From the NCBI RefSeq assembly GCF_030389965.1, contig NZ_CP128399.1, positions 620,001-684,000 of the forward strand: 64,000 nt of DNA, in the 5' to 3' direction. The position numbers and the translations under genes were made by a program. Within the stretch, counting starts at the first letter, position 1; each line of letters starts with the position of its first letter. The notes below the pieces were generated by a model. That model was given only the letters and a program-made list of their open reading frames with translations, was not told the DNA's origin and ran no database searches. The stretch is from Candidatus Chlorohelix allophototropha. GTDB taxonomy: Bacteria; Chloroflexota; Chloroflexia; Chloroheliales; Chloroheliaceae. Below are positions 12,131 through 53,423 of the stretch, piece after piece.

Positions 12131-13261
12131 TTATTGTTGCAACTTAGACTTATCAATTCTGATAACCGTAGTAGGCGCATCGTCCGGGTCATATTCTGGC
12201 TCTTTCTTCTCCTCTTTAGGAGGAGTCGGCGGAGTCGGAGTCGGTTGTGGGTTATATTGGTTGTAGTTTACATAACTGGTAGGAGCTTCTTCATTTTCCG
12301 GCGTTTTGTTGGCAGTGCTGCCACCTATTACCTTAGTAGAGTCGTTTTCGGTTGGCAAGTTACTCCCGTATTGTGGCTGCTCATATTGCTGGTAATTTTG
12401 CTGCCCGTATTGCCCATACTGTCCATATTGCCCGTATTGACCATACTGCCCGTACTGGTTGTATTGGTCATAGCTTTGATAAGGCTGTTGCTCAGGCTGC
12501 TGTGGCGGTTGCGACGCTGGCGGGGTTTGTGGCTGTACTGGTTGGTAAGGTTGGCTATACTGACTATAATTACCGACCATTGTAGAACCGGCATCCTCTT
12601 CCGAAATCGGCGGTGCATATGAAACCGGAGGGTTGGTGGGTTTGTCGTCCGGGTATGCGGCTTGCACCGGGGGCGGCGTAGGCGCAACAGGTTCTTCAAC
12701 TATAGGCGCAGGCGGTGGTACAGGCGCAGGTTCTGGCGTAGGCGCTGGGGTTGTCATCATTGCCGCGTAGTTAGTACCAACCACGGTTGCTCCGGCATCG
12801 GGGACAGGTGGCGCATATACTTGCGCTGGGGGTGGGGTTGGCGCATCGTAGTTAGAAACCGGCGCTGTGTAAACAGGTTGAGCGGGTTCTGGCACTTTTA
12901 ATGAATCTGCCACCGATACTTTTTCTGGAATTGGCGCAACCGGGCGTGCCGGAGCGGTAGCCGGGTTCTGGTAGCTTAAAATATTCTGCCCGATTCGTAC
13001 AATGTCACGATGCAGGAGGTTATAAGGTGTCCCCGCTTCAAGCGCGGTATCCTTGATTAATACCGGGTTTTCACTTCCTAGATCGATTATTGCCCATTCA
13101 CCTGACAGAACCTTAATAACCGCGTGGTAGCGCGAAACATACGGATCGTCAAACGAAATATCATTATCATCGCTGCGTCCGATGGTAATCTGGTTTTTTT
13201 CCAATTCGTAGCGTCTGCCTATATCAGGTCCACGCTGTACAATGAAGAAAGGATTTGGCAT
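12131..13261 (-). CDS. FHA-domain protein with long P/Q/Y-rich tail
   Basis: This 376-residue protein has an N-terminal FHA phosphothreonine-binding domain (about 1-100) with ITIGRS at 26-30, the SRYH core at 43-46 and an N at the GSEN turn. From about residue 105 onward the protein is low-complexity (P, Q, Y, A, T), including a run of seven Gly-Gln-Tyr triplets around 265-290, and ends in DDAPTTVIRIDKSKLQQ. The tail contains several TxV/TMVG motifs (ATVVG, STMVG, TKVIGG) that could be kinase phosphosites, an inference. No TM helix is visible. It is the last gene of a four-gene minus-strand block after the S8 lipoprotein (82-base gap). GCAGGAGAATTCAA precedes the ATG. Confidence 0.85.
   Translation of the reverse strand: MPNPFFIVQRGPDIGRRYELEKNQITIGRSDDNDISFDDPYVSRYHAVIKVLSGEWAIIDLGSENPVLIKDTALEAGTPYNLLHRDIVRIGQNILSYQNPATAPARPVAPIPEKVSVADSLKVPEPAQPVYTAPVSNYDAPTPPPAQVYAPPVPDAGATVVGTNYAAMMTTPAPTPEPAPVPPPAPIVEEPVAPTPPPVQAAYPDDKPTNPPVSYAPPISEEDAGSTMVGNYSQYSQPYQPVQPQTPPASQPPQQPEQQPYQSYDQYNQYGQYGQYGQYGQYGQYGQQNYQQYEQPQYGSNLPTENDSTKVIGGSTANKTPENEEAPTSYVNYNQYNPQPTPTPPTPPKEEKKEPEYDPDDAPTTVIRIDKSKLQQ
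12404..12466. repeat. 9-bp tandem repeat encoding (YGQ)n
   Basis: Seven consecutive 9-bp units of the pattern NCCRTAYTG lie on the plus strand. On the coding strand they read CAR-TAY-GGN and give the Gln-Tyr-Gly tract of the FHA protein. The third positions vary, so protein sequence rather than DNA seems to be what is kept. Units of this kind are prone to length variation by slippage. Confidence 0.8.
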
Positions 13262-13343
13262 TTGAATTCTCCTGCATTATGGAGCGGGCTACCCCGCATT
13301 AATTTACACTCTGCTTTTTGCTTGATAATTACTTTATAATATT

Positions 13344-15638
13344 TTATTGACTCGATAAAGGTGTAATTGCTAAATCACTGAACATTGCCAACGGTTGGTT
13401 AAAAATCCCCCCGGTAATAGCAGCCGTCCCTCCAAATTTCCCTGTAACGAAACCCATATTTCCGCCTAATGTGGGATTTTGGAGCGGTACACTGATTAAA
13501 CCCATACCCTGCGCTTTTATTTTAAGATATCCGGCGGTTGCTTCAAGACTAAATCGCAAATTCCCGCTATTTATATTAAACATATTACTGGCTGTCCAAG
13601 GTACAATCTCGCGCCAACTATCTCCGTTGCGTTCAAGCACTGCAAAGGCGTTGCCGCTTACGCAGAAAAGGTAGTAAGCGGTAGCACTGCGTTGCCAGAA
13701 TAATACCCCGTAAAAGTAGCCATCCTCTTTAACTGCATTTGAGAATCCCGCCGTGAAATCTATTTTGAACTCACGATAAATTCGGTTTGAATACACACTC
13801 CAATTAAGTTCGTTTGGTTTGCCTACCCTGACAAAATAGGCGGTTGTACCATCCGGCAATGTACCGTAATATGCTTGATAGTTATCCGGCAAACCCCCTC
13901 GATAATCGGTAAAGTTGTCGTTCACAACCGGGCCAGCTACCTCAGCCCCTAATAATTCTGCTACGCCACCCTGCAACGCCTCAATTGCTCCAAAATGAGC
14001 TTCTCCCCATCCGGTGGCGTTGGGGTCTTCGCTCTTAAAAGGCTGGATGTTGCGGTGAAGGTATGTTTCCAATTGGTTCGCGTTCAAAGCTGGGGCTGCG
14101 CTCAAAATTACCGCTGCTATCCCTGCCACTTGAGGGGCTGCTGCACTTGTTCCGCTGAACACCTGATTTTGCCCTACACTCCGCAAGGTTACTCCCGTTG
14201 GCGCTACCAATTCCGGTTTCTTGCGCCCATCCTGAGTGGGACCACGACTGCTATAGGGTTCAAGCGTATTATCACGCCACGATACTGCTCCAACTGTAAT
14301 TGCCCCTTTTGCATCACCGGGAGCAGCAAGGCTGCCTGATGGATCATATTCCTCGAAACTGGCGTTATAGGCATATAGGTTAAAATGTACCCCTTCACCA
14401 CCTTTGCCTGCGTTACGCACCTGAATATAATAAGTCCGATTAGGTTCAGCGTGGAAAGGCGCCAATTCAACCGGGGGCTTATTGCTGCCATCTCCTTGCA
14501 AATTACGAGAACTGCCTTTAGGCTGCTTATTCTCATCCAAAATGTAAAGGTCCAGATTCGTTGAAGGTGCGTCCCAATTCTCATCCCAGCGCAACGAAAC
14601 CCAGCAATTATCAGATGTAGCGGTAAACTTCAGGGTTATTGCTCCCTCAGTGCTACCAAAGCGGTTAAAGCCGTTAGTATCAGGCTTAAAATTGCCTGCA
14701 TAATGCGCTCGTCCGTAGTTACCTGCTGATACAACCGGCAATGCCCCCGCGTTTCTCGCCTCAGTCAGTTTCGAAGAAAGAAGGCTGCTACCATCGCTAG
14801 GCCATAAACCACCCCATGCCAGCGACACTTGAATAATCTGCACCCGATTTTCCATCAGCCAATTCACTGCTTTGGCAAATCCGATCTCATCCTCGATAGC
14901 TGCCAAATACAATTGCGCTTCCGGGGCGTAGCTATTGATTATTTCTGATACCGATACGCCATGTTTTCCAGAACCTTCCCCCTCCCCATAAACGAAGGAT
15001 TGGAAAGTTACTTGATTGCTTGGTGGTAGCCCGTTTCCAAAATAATCGCGGAATCCGGCGAAACCGCTATCTATTATCCCTACTTTGACCCCTTTACCGT
15101 TATAACCCGCCTGTTGCCAAACCTCTGCCCCTGTCGCTTTCAACCCTTCCTGTGGCGCAAAAATATCGGCGGTGGGCGGTTGGAGAATCACTTTTAGGTC
15201 GCGTACTGCGCTTAAAGAGCCTAAATCATTCCAAAAATCTTGTTGACCACTGCGTTTTACCAGTTCTGGTAGGCTGACTCGTATCGACAGGTAATGTTCG
15301 TAGGAAGCCGTCACAATTGCCCCCATCTGTTCCAGCTTTTGCTTAACAGTCGGCAAGTTTGTGCTACTATCTAGCGTTAGTTCGAAGCGTACCCGATCCT
15401 GTTCATCTAATAAACCGCTATCGTGGGCGAATTGTCTAGCTGCATCCAGACCGCCCGTGTTGTATTTCAGCAATAAATCCGATAGCATCGTATCCGTTTT
15501 GCTATCGATAATTACCGGATGTGGGGCAGGCGTAGGTTCTGTGCCACAAGCCAGCAGCAATAGGTTGGCGAGTAGCACCCATATAAGACAAAGAACGGGC
15601 GGTAACCCGTGTTTTATTACCGTCCCTTTTAGTATCAT
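13344..15638 (-). CDS. Subtilisin-like (S8) serine protease, predicted lipoprotein
   Basis: This 764-residue protein has an N-terminal signal with a lipobox LLLAC (Cys about residue 31), so it is probably anchored outside the membrane. The catalytic triad is visible: D190 in VGIIDSGF, H226 in GKHGVSVSEI and S498 in FSGTSAAAPQVAG; the oxyanion Asn is in SAGNYG near 306. A region of about 85 residues between Asn and Ser (about 330-425, SLRWDENW through TYYIQVRNAG) resembles a pre-peptidase C-terminal beta domain. The C-terminal 170 residues look like a jelly-roll/LamG-type beta domain. It sits between PP2C and FHA genes on the same strand (21 and 82 base gaps), suggesting a shared transcript. 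Confidence 0.88.
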   Translation of the reverse strand: MILKGTVIKHGLPPVLCLIWVLLANLLLLACGTEPTPAPHPVIIDSKTDTMLSDLLLKYNTGGLDAARQFAHDSGLLDEQDRVRFELTLDSSTNLPTVKQKLEQMGAIVTASYEHYLSIRVSLPELVKRSGQQDFWNDLGSLSAVRDLKVILQPPTADIFAPQEGLKATGAEVWQQAGYNGKGVKVGIIDSGFAGFRDYFGNGLPPSNQVTFQSFVYGEGEGSGKHGVSVSEIINSYAPEAQLYLAAIEDEIGFAKAVNWLMENRVQIIQVSLAWGGLWPSDGSSLLSSKLTEARNAGALPVVSAGNYGRAHYAGNFKPDTNGFNRFGSTEGAITLKFTATSDNCWVSLRWDENWDAPSTNLDLYILDENKQPKGSSRNLQGDGSNKPPVELAPFHAEPNRTYYIQVRNAGKGGEGVHFNLYAYNASFEEYDPSGSLAAPGDAKGAITVGAVSWRDNTLEPYSSRGPTQDGRKKPELVAPTGVTLRSVGQNQVFSGTSAAAPQVAGIAAVILSAAPALNANQLETYLHRNIQPFKSEDPNATGWGEAHFGAIEALQGGVAELLGAEVAGPVVNDNFTDYRGGLPDNYQAYYGTLPDGTTAYFVRVGKPNELNWSVYSNRIYREFKIDFTAGFSNAVKEDGYFYGVLFWQRSATAYYLFCVSGNAFAVLERNGDSWREIVPWTASNMFNINSGNLRFSLEATAGYLKIKAQGMGLISVPLQNPTLGGNMGFVTGKFGGTAAITGGIFNQPLAMFSDLAITPLSSQ

Positions 15639-15659
15639 AAGTCTTTTACAAAACTAGGT

Positions 15660-17357
15660 CTAACCCCGAGGTGTTGTAGTGCCGGGTGGCAAAGGCGTTG
15701 CCCCGGAAGAAAAGGGTTCCACCTCACCACGTGTAGTGCTTTCCGCAGTTTCGAGGCTGTAAAGCATCTTCAGGACACCGGAGTCGAATTTAAGTTGTGC
15801 GCCGGAACCGGCACTAACGCCATTATCTTCGATACGTAAATCTTTACCGCTAAACTTCAATCCAAATGTTTCGGCAGGTTGGTTTTGGCAAATTGCGCTG
15901 ACAATATAGGTGGAAGCCGCTAATTCAAGGTTGGCATCCTGAGAGGTGCTGAATACAAAATACTGCTTACCCTCAATGATTTGGTCACCTACATAGCCTA
16001 ACGATAACCCGGAACTAGAGACACGCTCAAGCCTGAATACGCAATCCTTAGCTGCTACAGTTGAAGGCCATCCTGAAACGGTCAGCCAGATTTCAAGCCG
16101 CTTTATCTGGCTTCGGTCAATCTGGATACCCGGTGAAACAGGCGGTTGTGGCGCGTTACCACCAGCGGTGGCAGGATTGGTAGTAGAGACGGCTACGGGT
16201 AGTGCGCTGGTTTTAGCAATAGCGGCAGCAGCCTGTGTAACAGTTGGAATTATGGTTTGTGCCGAGTTGGTGGTTGTGGAAGTAGTCGGGGTTTGAGTTG
16301 TGTTTCCAGAAGTTGATGAATTGGAGCTAATATATAGAAATGCTGCAATTGCCGCTGCTGCCAGCAAAACAAATAAAGCCGCAAAAATAAAGCCGCCTGA
16401 GCCTTTGGCTTTCTTAACCTGCACAGGAGTCTGAACAGTAGGTTTATTATCCACCGGGGCGGGAACTTTTAGAGTTTCTGCGGCAGCAGGTGTGCGTGTG
16501 GTTACCTGGTCAATGGCTGGAATTTCCAAAGTAGCGGCATTACCGTTGGTTTGCGTGCTAGGAGTACCAAGAAATGAAGGTATCGTCGGACCTAATTCAT
16601 TAATCCCGATCAACAATACGCTGATATTGTCGCTGCCCCCGCGTGAATTAGCAAGGTCAATCAACTCCTGAGACGCTTTCTGAAGATTAGGAGCTGCCGC
16701 TACAATAGTACCCATCTCCATTTCTTTGACCAGACCATGCAATCCGTCCGAACAAAGCAGAATTACATCTCCCGGTTGAAGTTCTTGCTCAAAAAGATCA
16801 GGCTCAACTTCGTCCCGATGCCCGATGGCGCGGGTGATGATGTTGCGGATAAGGCTTTTTGAAGCCTGTTCAGGGGTTAGCGCGCCCATTTCGATCTGCT
16901 CTTGCACCAGCGAATGGTCGCGGGTGATGCGCAACGGAATGCCTTTCCTGATAAGATAGGTGCGACTATCACCGACATTACCCACCAATACCCGGTTACC
17001 TTTAATTACGGCAATGGTTAGAGTAGTACCCATCTGCCCCTTACCCGGTTCGGTACCGGCTTTATAAACTTCAGTATTGGTAGTAATGATGGCTTGCATC
17101 AGGTCATTATCAAGCCGACCCGAAGTCGGCCCGTTGTAATAGCGGTCGAAGAGGGTGTTTATTGCCAATTCACTGGCAACCTCACCGGCAGCATAGCCGC
17201 CCATGCCATCGGCAACAGCAAAGAGATGCCCTTTTTCTTCCACCTTACGGGGGTCAAAGGCAGGCTCACCCTTTATTAAAAGGTCGCCGAGGTAATCTTC
17301 ATTATGTTCACGTTTGCGCCCTACGTCAGTAAGCGCAACAGGATCAAGCTTGAGCAA
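15660..17357 (-). CDS. PP2C-type protein phosphatase with one TM helix and extracellular domain
   Basis: This 565-residue protein has an N-terminal PPM/PP2C domain (about 1-255) with metal-binding motifs: GRKREHNED, VADGMGGYAAGE, GNVGDSRTYLI, LLCSDGLHGLV and RGGSDNISVLL. It should dephosphorylate Ser/Thr phosphoproteins in the cytosol, opposing Hanks kinases. A T/P-rich linker leads to a TM helix (about 325-347, GGFIFAALFVLLAAAAIAAF), a T/S/N-rich stalk and an extracellular beta-like domain of about 150 residues. The start is TTG: GGAGG lies 9 bases upstream and no better ATG exists. It is located between the FHA-TM gene and the S8 protease gene. Confidence 0.92.
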   Translation of the reverse strand: MLKLDPVALTDVGRKREHNEDYLGDLLIKGEPAFDPRKVEEKGHLFAVADGMGGYAAGEVASELAINTLFDRYYNGPTSGRLDNDLMQAIITTNTEVYKAGTEPGKGQMGTTLTIAVIKGNRVLVGNVGDSRTYLIRKGIPLRITRDHSLVQEQIEMGALTPEQASKSLIRNIITRAIGHRDEVEPDLFEQELQPGDVILLCSDGLHGLVKEMEMGTIVAAAPNLQKASQELIDLANSRGGSDNISVLLIGINELGPTIPSFLGTPSTQTNGNAATLEIPAIDQVTTRTPAAAETLKVPAPVDNKPTVQTPVQVKKAKGSGGFIFAALFVLLAAAAIAAFLYISSNSSTSGNTTQTPTTSTTTNSAQTIIPTVTQAAAAIAKTSALPVAVSTTNPATAGGNAPQPPVSPGIQIDRSQIKRLEIWLTVSGWPSTVAAKDCVFRLERVSSSGLSLGYVGDQIIEGKQYFVFSTSQDANLELAASTYIVSAICQNQPAETFGLKFSGKDLRIEDNGVSAGSGAQLKFDSGVLKMLYSLETAESTTRGEVEPFSSGATPLPPGTTTPRG

Positions 17358-17436
17358 TTATCTATTCCTCCGAAACGCGGGCAGCAGCACAATCAGGTAT
17401 ACGCCGGAAAACTGCAAGATACCGCCTCCTTTACTA

Positions 17437-18693
17437 TTAGCTAAATTGGAGTGAGTCTAGAATATCTCCAAAAGTGTTGTTAAAGGAGGCGATTTTGCTT
17501 TTCTCCGCGCCCAATTCAATCAAATAAGCGTCCCGGTTTGAATTTTGAGTCAACATAATATATTCGTGAAAGGTAAGTGAATTCGGGTTCGGATATTCCA
17601 CCTCAAAAGTTACCACACCATTGCGGTTGACTTCTGGTTGAACGGTAACACTAAGTTTGGAATTCTGGTTCTTGAAGGCGCTAATAAATTGATCGGCACG
17701 AGCTTGCAAATCTCCACCTAATCCGGGAAAGCGCAGGATTGAGACAAAAGCTCCTTCAGGGCTAATGCCTTGAATGGTTCCTACATTATTGGTTTCTTCC
17801 CGCGAACTGGTTTTCCAGTCGTTAGGAAAGGTAACGCTTACTCCAAAGTTATTAACCGTACCACCAGTCCCACCAACTGAGGCTACGGTTGTAACCGGAA
17901 TAACCGGCACTTTAGTTGCTACTGCCGCAACCGTAGAAGGGGCGGGAGAGGGTGGCGGTGCGTTGGTACCGCTTGCCCCGGTAGCTACGGTAGTCACTAA
18001 AATAGCGGTTGTGGCTATTCCGGTTGTACCATTTGCACCACCGGTGGTTCTCACTCCGCCGGGAGTGTTGGCAACTGCCGTACCGGGAGTTGGCGTGTTA
18101 TCCTTGTTGCCACTCAGTACAAAAAATCCCGCTACTGCGCCCCCACCGATCAATACCAGCAAAGCTACAATCAAGACAATTATGCCAGCGCCGCCCTTTT
18201 TCTTGGGAGCAGGGGCAGGGGCATAAGGTTGGTATGCCTGCGGTTGATAAGCTTGGGGTTGGGGCTGATAAGCCTGCGGCTGGTAAGCTTGGGGTTGGGG
18301 TTGTACCGGAGGCGTGTTGTAGGGCTGATACCCCTGCGGTTGCACAGGATAAACCGGAGGTTGCATCGGTGCGCTGGGCATTGCCATCTGGGTAGGGGCG
18401 GCTGTTGCTGCAAATTGCATACTGTTGTCGCCAATTTTAATAATATCTCCGGGTTGCAAAGCGCGGGGAGTATTCGGCGCGAGCCTTTGGCTATTAACAT
18501 AACTTCCGTTAGCGGAACCGAGGTCGGTTATAAATATCGTACCACTACGGTTTTCAAATTGGGCGTGACGGCGGGATATTTGCGTGTCATTTAGGACAAT
18601 ATCACAACCAACCTGCCTGCCCAAAACTACTAGCTGGTTCTCTAGATTGAAAGACTTTCCAGCGTCCGAACCGCTTTGCACGATTAGCTGCAT
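17437..18693 (-). CDS. FHA-domain protein with one TM helix and extracellular PsbP/DUF-like domain
   Basis: This 418-residue protein has an N-terminal FHA domain (about 1-95; LGRQ, SRRH at 40-43, GSANGSYVN). A Q/P/A/Y-rich linker with repeated QPQAY units (about 125-165) leads to KKK and a TM helix (about 172-195). A T/P-rich stalk then precedes a C-terminal globular domain starting FGVSVTFPNDW, which resembles PsbP-like or lipoprotein-associated domains exposed outside. The topology (FHA in, sensor-like domain out) mirrors that of the neighbouring PP2C. It is the first gene of the block; GGGAG lies 6 bases before the ATG. Confidence 0.85.
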   Translation of the reverse strand: MQLIVQSGSDAGKSFNLENQLVVLGRQVGCDIVLNDTQISRRHAQFENRSGTIFITDLGSANGSYVNSQRLAPNTPRALQPGDIIKIGDNSMQFAATAAPTQMAMPSAPMQPPVYPVQPQGYQPYNTPPVQPQPQAYQPQAYQPQPQAYQPQAYQPYAPAPAPKKKGGAGIIVLIVALLVLIGGGAVAGFFVLSGNKDNTPTPGTAVANTPGGVRTTGGANGTTGIATTAILVTTVATGASGTNAPPPSPAPSTVAAVATKVPVIPVTTVASVGGTGGTVNNFGVSVTFPNDWKTSSREETNNVGTIQGISPEGAFVSILRFPGLGGDLQARADQFISAFKNQNSKLSVTVQPEVNRNGVVTFEVEYPNPNSLTFHEYIMLTQNSNRDAYLIELGAEKSKIASFNNTFGDILDSLQFS

Positions 18694-18883: not shown

Positions 18884-19678
18884 CTATCCCAGAAGAATAT
18901 TTCCGATAAATGCTAAAGCACGACTTTTTTCTTCTGCGCTTCGTCCTGCATCCAATACACAACGGCAGGTGCGGGTGTAAGAACCGATAGTTTGAAGCTC
19001 GGTTCGTCCTTCTTGCCATCGAAAAGGTTGCCCGCTTTTATCACGTAAGTATTGTTCTGCTTCAGCTTTGCCAAATGGATATGCAATCTGAAAACGCCTT
19101 GAACGTGCCGAACCCTCAAAAATGTAAAAACCATCGTACCAACGCGGGTCATGCTGCGCTCTTCTAAAATGGGCGTTATGCATATATCGCGCAAAGTTAG
19201 CAGGTTCAAGTTGGGCGCGAATATCTTTTAAGATTCTGGCTATTTCTAGAAAGCCCACCAGATAAAAACCGGCTTGCCCGGTAAACAGCCCATTGTGATA
19301 ATCTGCCAACCTTGCCAGAAATACCAGTATATCGCCGGGTTGCGCTTGCTTGAGAGCGGCGGCGCGAGGGGTTCGCCCACATTCATCGCCGTAAGTCAGC
19401 GCGGTAAAATCAGGGTCGGCATGTACCGCTAAATCTGCCCGGTTTATAGGTATATAACGCGCCAACGATTCATTTGTTTCGTTCCAGCATTGAAGTTGGT
19501 TATATCGCACAAAGCCGGATGCTTGTTGGAATTCTTTTAGCTCTGGAATGGGTATAAACTCAAAACGCCCGTCTGGGAAACGTGGGCTTTGCAAACCGAG
19601 ATTGATATGGCTGGCATTCACCCCTACATTAGCCAGAAAAATGCGTGGCAAGGGTTGATTCGCATGAATTAATGACAT
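18884..19678 (-). CDS. Uncharacterised protein with possible Nmad3-like fold
   Basis: I do not recognise this 264-residue soluble protein with certainty. It begins PRIFLANVGVNASHINLGLQ, then RFEFIPIPEL, HADPDFTALTYGDECGRTPR and a QPGDILVFLARL strand. The order (N-terminal Asn/Ser-rich loop, 'lPIP', H-D-P, G-R, GD-f-hydrophobic) is reminiscent of Nmad3 (nucleotide modification-associated domain 3) proteins, which have been linked to hypermodified-base biosynthesis. This is pattern recall and weak. No DNA-modification, phage or restriction gene is adjacent. The gene is divergent from a small membrane-protein gene. Confidence 0.45.
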   Translation of the reverse strand: MSLIHANQPLPRIFLANVGVNASHINLGLQSPRFPDGRFEFIPIPELKEFQQASGFVRYNQLQCWNETNESLARYIPINRADLAVHADPDFTALTYGDECGRTPRAAALKQAQPGDILVFLARLADYHNGLFTGQAGFYLVGFLEIARILKDIRAQLEPANFARYMHNAHFRRAQHDPRWYDGFYIFEGSARSRRFQIAYPFGKAEAEQYLRDKSGQPFRWQEGRTELQTIGSYTRTCRCVLDAGRSAEEKSRALAFIGNILLG

Positions 19679-52832: not shown

Positions 52833-53423
52833 TTACCACTTGCCATATCTGAACTTAGCTCGATAGCGATCTACCATCATTAAGGGAATAGCTAACCCGG
52901 AGAATATCAGGCATAGTACAAATACTGCCGCCGGATGGCTTGCTGAGGCAGGTCCATATCGCTTCCGCCGCTTCGACGTATCTACAGTTAGCCAAATGGC
53001 TATTCCAAATATGAACATGTAAATGATGCCTACCAAACTATTCCTAGCTTGATCTAGAGCTGCGGTAGTATAGTACGGTCCTTTGAAAAAAAGCTGTGCC
53101 AAAACAAAGGCGAGTACCCATGTTACCACTCCCTCTCCAATAAACCATGCGAGGAACAGAAAAAACAATACTAATTTTGATGGCCCGGCTTTGGCTTGAG
53201 CTTGATAGGGGTACTGTCCGTATGGCTGGGGTTGCTGATAATAATAGCCGGGTTGCGGTTGCCCTTGCGGTGGAGGATAATAACCTTGTGGTTGGGGTGG
53301 ATACTGCGGCTGAACTGGGTTTCCATATACCGGATATGGAGGCGGGGCATTAAACCCTTGTGGTTGGGGTGGATACTGCTGATTCCTTCCATCGGGGTTT
53401 TGTTGCGCGGGTGTCGAATCCAT
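52833..53423 (-). CDS. Membrane protein with Pro/Gln/Tyr-rich N-terminal tail
   Basis: This 196-residue protein has an N-terminal low-complexity tail of about 80 residues (PPQPQGF/PPQPQGY repeats and YGQYPY), then three hydrophobic segments (about 84-108, 125-147, 160-180). A basic C-terminus ends the protein. The function is unknown. The tail resembles those of the FHA proteins at 12-18 kb, which could be a shared low-complexity theme rather than common ancestry. GGGGA precedes the ATG. Confidence 0.7.
   Translation of the reverse strand: MDSTPAQQNPDGRNQQYPPQPQGFNAPPPYPVYGNPVQPQYPPQPQGYYPPPQGQPQPGYYYQQPQPYGQYPYQAQAKAGPSKLVLFFLFLAWFIGEGVVTWVLAFVLAQLFFKGPYYTTAALDQARNSLVGIIYMFIFGIAIWLTVDTSKRRKRYGPASASHPAAVFVLCLIFSGLAIPLMMVDRYRAKFRYGKW

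Follow-up and report, generated by a model that had tools for sequence, protein, structure and literature searches.

The four-gene block and its proteins

The window, that is, the whole 64,000-nucleotide stretch analysed, spans positions 620001-684000 of contig C1 of Ca. Chlorohelix allophototropha L227-S17, a bacterium with two chromosomes (PMC10972752), whose 6.09 Mb genome assembly has 5 contigs, C1 being 2.96 Mb and C2 2.45 Mb long. The block comprises the following genes and features (window coordinates):

17437-18693, minus strand: FHA1 (418 aa), with an N-terminal FHA domain, a Pro/Gln-rich linker, one transmembrane (TM) segment and an extracytoplasmic PsbP-like domain
18430-18630, minus strand: FHA domain of FHA1, with Gly25-Arg26, Ser40, His43 and Asn62 kept
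18106-18204, minus strand: TM segment of FHA1 (hydropathy, residues 164-196)
15660-17357, minus strand: PP2C (565 aa), an Stp1/PstP-type Ser/Thr phosphatase with a cytosolic linker, one TM segment and an extracytoplasmic tail
16317-16409, minus strand: TM segment of PP2C (TM scan, residues 317-347)
13344-15638, minus strand: S8 lipoprotease (764 aa), with a lipobox, an N-terminal alpha/beta region, a subtilase core with an insertion and a C-terminal beta-sandwich
15069-15071, minus strand: codon of catalytic Asp190 (protease triad)
14961-14963, minus strand: codon of catalytic His226 (protease triad)
14349-14708, minus strand: beta domain that interrupts the subtilase between Asn307 and Ser498, at the same place as the CspB jellyroll
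14145-14147, minus strand: codon of catalytic Ser498, invariant in 13 sequences
12131-13261, minus strand: FHA2 (376 aa), with an N-terminal FHA domain and a disordered tail carrying acidic-x-Thr-x-Val/Ile repeats and a Tyr-Gly-Gln tract
12383-12466, minus strand: low-complexity Tyr-Gly-Gln tract of FHA2 (residues 266-293; DNA tandem repeat at 12401-12457)

An earlier note on this DNA described four genes on one strand with gaps of 21 to about 80 bases, and we confirmed the open reading frames and found gaps of 79, 21 and 82 bp in the order of transcription (FHA1, PP2C, S8, FHA2). The PP2C frame starts with TTG, and Shine-Dalgarno-like stretches (GGAGGAA / AGGAG) precede the starts of PP2C and FHA2. 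Between the four genes there is no strong terminator-like site on the minus strand, and promoter-like sites are only in mild excess (23, compared with 13.5 +/- 4.0 by chance); judged from these sequence features, the four genes are likely co-transcribed. All four proteins keep their signature residues intact. Just upstream of FHA1, a gene at 18884-19678 encodes an Nmad3 (nucleotide modification associated) protein.

FHA1 matches the Pfam FHA domain (1.4e-21), and its phosphothreonine-pocket residues (GR..S..H..N) are invariant among orthologs. PP2C matches the Pfam PP2C family (4.4e-15), passes the curated NCBIfam Stp1 profile NF033484 (233.9 bits, cut-off 230) and has metal-site motifs that are likewise invariant among orthologs. 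Both proteins had been described as a cytosolic signalling domain followed by one TM segment and an outer beta domain; the single TM segment holds for each, but the outer domain of FHA1 is, as modelled, an alpha/beta PsbP-like fold (the FHA1 prediction is poor, with a pLDDT of 51.7, and the outer domain alone was used, which matches PsbP structures).

The protease matches Pfam Peptidase_S8 in two stretches (7.7e-28) and begins with a signal peptide and lipobox (Cys31). Its catalytic Asp190, His226 and Ser498 and its oxyanion Asn307 are invariant in all 13 aligned protease sequences, and the oxyanion Asn and catalytic Ser are 191 residues apart, compared with 66 in subtilisin BPN'. The predicted structure (mean pLDDT 77.8) has, from the N-terminus, an alpha/beta region, a subtilase core interrupted after the oxyanion Asn by a beta insertion, and a C-terminal beta-sandwich; its best PDB matches (Foldseek) are CspA, CspB and CspC. 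CspB carries a jellyroll insertion of about 130 residues, described as unique to Csps (PMC3567191). As in these clostridial proteases, the triad is intact and a beta domain lies between the oxyanion Asn and the Ser, the insertion point coinciding with that of CspB; unlike them, the window protease is a lipoprotein with an extra C-terminal beta-sandwich and no spore context, and it scores far below the curated Csp profiles (CspBA, 35.6 bits compared with 1250; CspC, 20.4 compared with 675). On the model, then, the kinship is one of likeness of architecture and not of membership. Because the architecture is CspB-like, and CspB activates a zymogen, the cortex hydrolase SleC, a narrow processing role for the protease is plausible by analogy.

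FHA2 matches the Pfam FHA domain (2.3e-17) and has no TM segment in the TM scan. Its closest solved relatives are GarA/OdhI, FHA regulators with a phosphothreonine switch, although it scores only 50.5 bits with the curated OdhI profile (cut-off 200). Like those regulators, it has acidic-Thr-hydrophobic sites in a disordered segment; unlike them, it has several such sites, at the C-terminal end, together with the Tyr-Gly-Gln tract, and lacks the single N-terminal switch. The tail holds five threonines that are followed by Val/Ile at +2 and preceded, at a distance of no more than four residues, by an acidic residue; shuffled sequences give 0.74 (P 0.0008). The enrichment recurs at P<0.02 in five of six FHA2 orthologs (L047, L112, L113, L114 and L115; L065 is not significant, P 0.11), of which L112-L115 are the independent tests, the motif having been picked with the window and L047 sequences in view. 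Elsewhere in the cassette, protein linkers carry the motif once or never. With its Tyr-Gly-Gln tract, FHA2 has the most YGQ-rich 60-residue stretch among 220 sampled ORFs (second in Tyr/Gly/Gln content in that sample is a 196-aa ORF at window 52833-53423). It has 6 YGQ repeats, compared with 26-37 in sister genomes G083-G085, where the tract is much longer; the FHA2 genes of L112, L113 and L114, with 26-37 repeats, are enlarged to 854-883 aa. The threonine sites and the tract suggest that FHA2 is a phosphorylated scaffold.

A larger cassette and its second chromosomal locus

The earlier note had named a lack of neighbourhood conservation as grounds for refutation, but FHA1-PP2C-S8 is adjacent, in the same order, in each of the four other family genomes (Chloroheliaceae), with orthologs 33-48% identical. 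This conservation supports the proposed phospho-signalling group, one that spans the membrane and has its protease on the outside, but the four genes are only half of the unit. The fuller unit, FHA1-PP2C-S8-FHA2-(FHA-FHA-ABC exporter)-Hanks kinase-FHA3, is nearly contiguous in sister genomes. In G086, FHA1-PP2C-S8 is followed by FHA2, FHA-FHA-ABC, a membrane protein and FHA3 (a small FHA protein), with gaps from FHA1 through the exporter of 142, 52, 31 and 13 bp; in G083 and G084 an FHA2-FHA-FHA-ABC-kinase line starts 13-14 kb downstream of S8 on the same contig, and in G085 the FHA2-ABC-kinase-FHA3 line is on a different contig. Two FHA domains, an NBD and an ABC-2 TMD are fused in one chain in the exporter orthologs of L047 and L065 (Pfam). 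Hanks kinases adjoin the exporter in five loci (L080, L112, L113, L114 and L115), and none lies inside the window block.

Outside the family, G098 has FHA-PP2C-S8-FHA-FHA-FHA-ABC (its S8 gene, L065:7838-10364, is split over reading frames, by assembly error or as a decaying gene), G097 has FHA1-PP2C-FHA2-FHA-FHA-ABC-kinase with its S8 homolog elsewhere, and in the further Chloroflexia G009 and G043 the exporter stands beside PP2C, kinase and FHA genes without S8. Because G097, G009 and G043 keep the core without S8, the signalling-exporter core is the older or wider part, and S8 a member added in a subset. FHA2 is absent from the S8 run in G083-G085 and the G097 cassette lacks S8, so the protease cannot be obligatory. 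A search of open-licence papers for this gene combination found nothing.

A PP2C gene also follows an FHA gene in the mycobacterial fhaB-pstP-rodA-pbpA-pknA-pknB operon. Unlike that operon, the block has no RodA/PBP and has an exporter and a protease instead; FHA1 scores 71.3 bits with the curated FhaB profile, below its cut-off of 125, and the neighbours are S8 and FHA2.

The genome of the window contains 39 Hanks kinase, 32 FHA and 6 PP2C matches, and both FHA and kinase genes are thus plentiful. A kinase lies within about 3 kb of four of the PP2C genes, but not of the one in the block. The exporter ortholog of this genome is on C2 at 1,110,554, aligns over the full profile and is 62% identical to the G086 and G083 exporters. 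The gene order on C2 is exporter, ferredoxin-like gene, kinase with a WD40-like ectodomain, kinase with a TPR-like ectodomain, FHA3; the ferredoxin-like gene (380 aa) and the WD40-like-ectodomain kinase lie between the exporter and the TPR kinase at L080:9734-13414 (C2 ~1,113-1,117 kb). The best match of the G083 cassette kinase among the kinases of this genome is the TPR kinase at C2:1118 kb (identity 65% over the kinase domain, 39% over the ectodomain), which is also the only one to match its ectodomain, and FHA3 shows 44% identity. Because the C2 exporter, TPR kinase and FHA3 match the sister-genome cassettes, FHA1-PP2C-S8-FHA2 on C1 and exporter-kinases-FHA3 on C2 are the halves of a single set, parted next to FHA2.

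The nearest Hanks kinase in the window is indeed 9.5 kb off, as had been reported, ending at 2654. With the exporter, kinase(s) and FHA3 on the other chromosome, it is not a likely partner. We rejected this kinase (765-2654) as a candidate, its kinase domain being 33-39% identical, compared with 65% for the C2 kinase.

The protease clade across Chloroflexota

We built a tree of 55 S8 proteins, 15 linked to signalling genes and 40 solitary. All 15 linked proteins fall in one clade (support 99/96 in the careful tree), within which nine solitary proteins are nested (eight duplicates within the window family and the G097 copy), the other 31 lying outside. The linked/solitary label changes 3 times on the tree, compared with about 12-13 times in shuffles. 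Most of the linked loci were picked up through their similarity to the query, which biases their frequencies; the tree result is independent of that. Linkage of the whole S8 family to signalling is ruled out by the 40 of 55 solitary rows.

In other Chloroflexota classes, S8 stands beside FHA-ABC on one strand (L072-L076 and L078), directly after it in L074, L075 and L076. Across the phylum, the FHA-ABC exporter is the nearest gene partner of the protease clade. A contig scan, by a pattern method of limited reach, found relatives only in Chloroflexota. In a sample of 400 genomes of the phylum, S8 occurs in 31 and FHA-ABC in 80, with both in G000, G005 and G031 only and no case of a shared contig, and S8 linkage is therefore a trait of a clade and not a general one.

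Several members of the wider set differ in form. Two more S8 lipoproteases of the same architecture are encoded on C1 (L006 and L007, ~2.23 and 2.65 Mb), as duplicates without signalling neighbours. The linked S8 proteins of L072, L073 and L078 have an N-terminal TM segment in place of the lipobox, and zinc-ribbon-like Cys motifs at the C-terminus after a second hydrophobic stretch; because of these two hydrophobic segments, both of their ends may be cytosolic. In L074 (8473-13641), a tandem pair of S8 lipoprotease genes directly follows the FHA-ABC exporter, and L104 contains two adjacent ORFs of great length, each more than 2,000 aa, with an S8 domain.

Proposed mechanism and alternatives

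In Mycobacterium tuberculosis, phosphorylation by PknF makes the FHA part of the exporter Rv1747 condense, and PstP undoes this (PMC9312465); the module is proposed to work through phosphorylation-dependent clustering (PMC9312465, PMC3908365). The Chloroflexota cassette resembles it in having an FHA-FHA-NBD-TMD exporter, an adjacent Hanks kinase, a PP2C and a disordered FHA-containing part; it differs in its separate FHA1, FHA2 and FHA3, its dedicated S8 lipoprotease, the TPR or WD40-like kinase ectodomains and the division between two chromosomes. We regard it as probable, if only just, that the block forms, on chromosome 1, one half of an ABC-exporter cassette under phospho-regulation, of the Rv1747/PknF/PstP kind and with a dedicated extracytoplasmic protease.

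The sequences themselves show the genes present, their conservation and linkage, the intact residues for catalysis and binding, the repeated threonine sites and the divided locus; we infer who phosphorylates whom, the clustering, the control of the exporter and the protease substrate, as follows. The TPR-ectodomain Hanks kinase (C2, ~1,118 kb) would phosphorylate the FHA2 tail, with Thr159, Thr227, Thr309 and Thr364/365 as candidate sites. FHA1, FHA2 and FHA3, together with the exporter's own pair of FHA domains, would read these marks and cluster into an assembly at the membrane that sets how active the exporter is; and PP2C would reverse the phosphorylation. The S8 lipoprotease would be the extracytoplasmic arm, processing an exported product or envelope protein with narrow specificity. 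As a hypothesis, FHA2 is the likely hub of the cassette, because of its threonine sites, its Tyr-Gly-Gln tract and the precedent of Rv1747 condensation. A stronger version, which we offer tentatively and rate well short of even, is that FHA2, with its several phosphothreonine sites and FUS-like Tyr-Gly-Gln tract, is a phosphorylation-driven condensate scaffold gathering the exporter, the kinase and the TM-FHA protein at the membrane, with the Csp-like lipoprotease as a dedicated outer processing step.

The protease could instead be a sheddase or sensor protease that alters phospho-signalling by cleaving the outer domain of FHA1, PP2C or the kinase. In each of these proteins a single TM segment carries the outer domain, and FHA1, PP2C and S8 are always adjacent within the family; yet several more distant loci (L052/L071, L073, L074, L075 and L078) keep S8-FHA-ABC with no PP2C or TM-FHA in the stretch seen (some contigs being cut), and no recognisable cleavage site was found, so that we consider shedding unlikely. 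We give slightly less credence to the protease as a passenger, an ordinary secreted protein of a quality-control or nutrient-protease group travelling with signalling genes, as the mostly solitary wider family and the duplicates and G097 copy out of the block would allow. Against this, the linkage is held in one clade across several Chloroflexota classes, the solitary relatives are almost without signalling neighbours, and in the negative-control class (that of G281, 177 genomes) 23 S8 and 5 FHA-ABC matches never share a contig. That the block is a type VII secretion-like unit, with FHA proteins and a mycosin-type protease, is highly improbable: among NCBIfam profiles the protease matches mycosin (TIGR03921) best, but at 50 bits compared with a cut-off of 278.75, a score so far below threshold that mycosin membership is ruled out; the insertion corresponds to that of CspB, which is also the top match by fold; and no EccC/WXG100 gene was noticed in the neighbourhoods examined.

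We favour the exporter cassette with a protease arm, a variant of the FHA-ABC exporter kind. An uncommon gene block thereby becomes a defined cassette with a list of partners that includes a kinase and an exporter outside the window, and a signalling locus is seen to be split cleanly between the two chromosomes of one bacterium. With this cassette, Rv1747-type exporters can be compared in a non-pathogen, and a protease of CspB-like architecture is tied to Ser/Thr phospho-signalling. If the condensate version is true, Chloroflexota would possess a phospho-gated export-and-processing machine that has so far gone undescribed.
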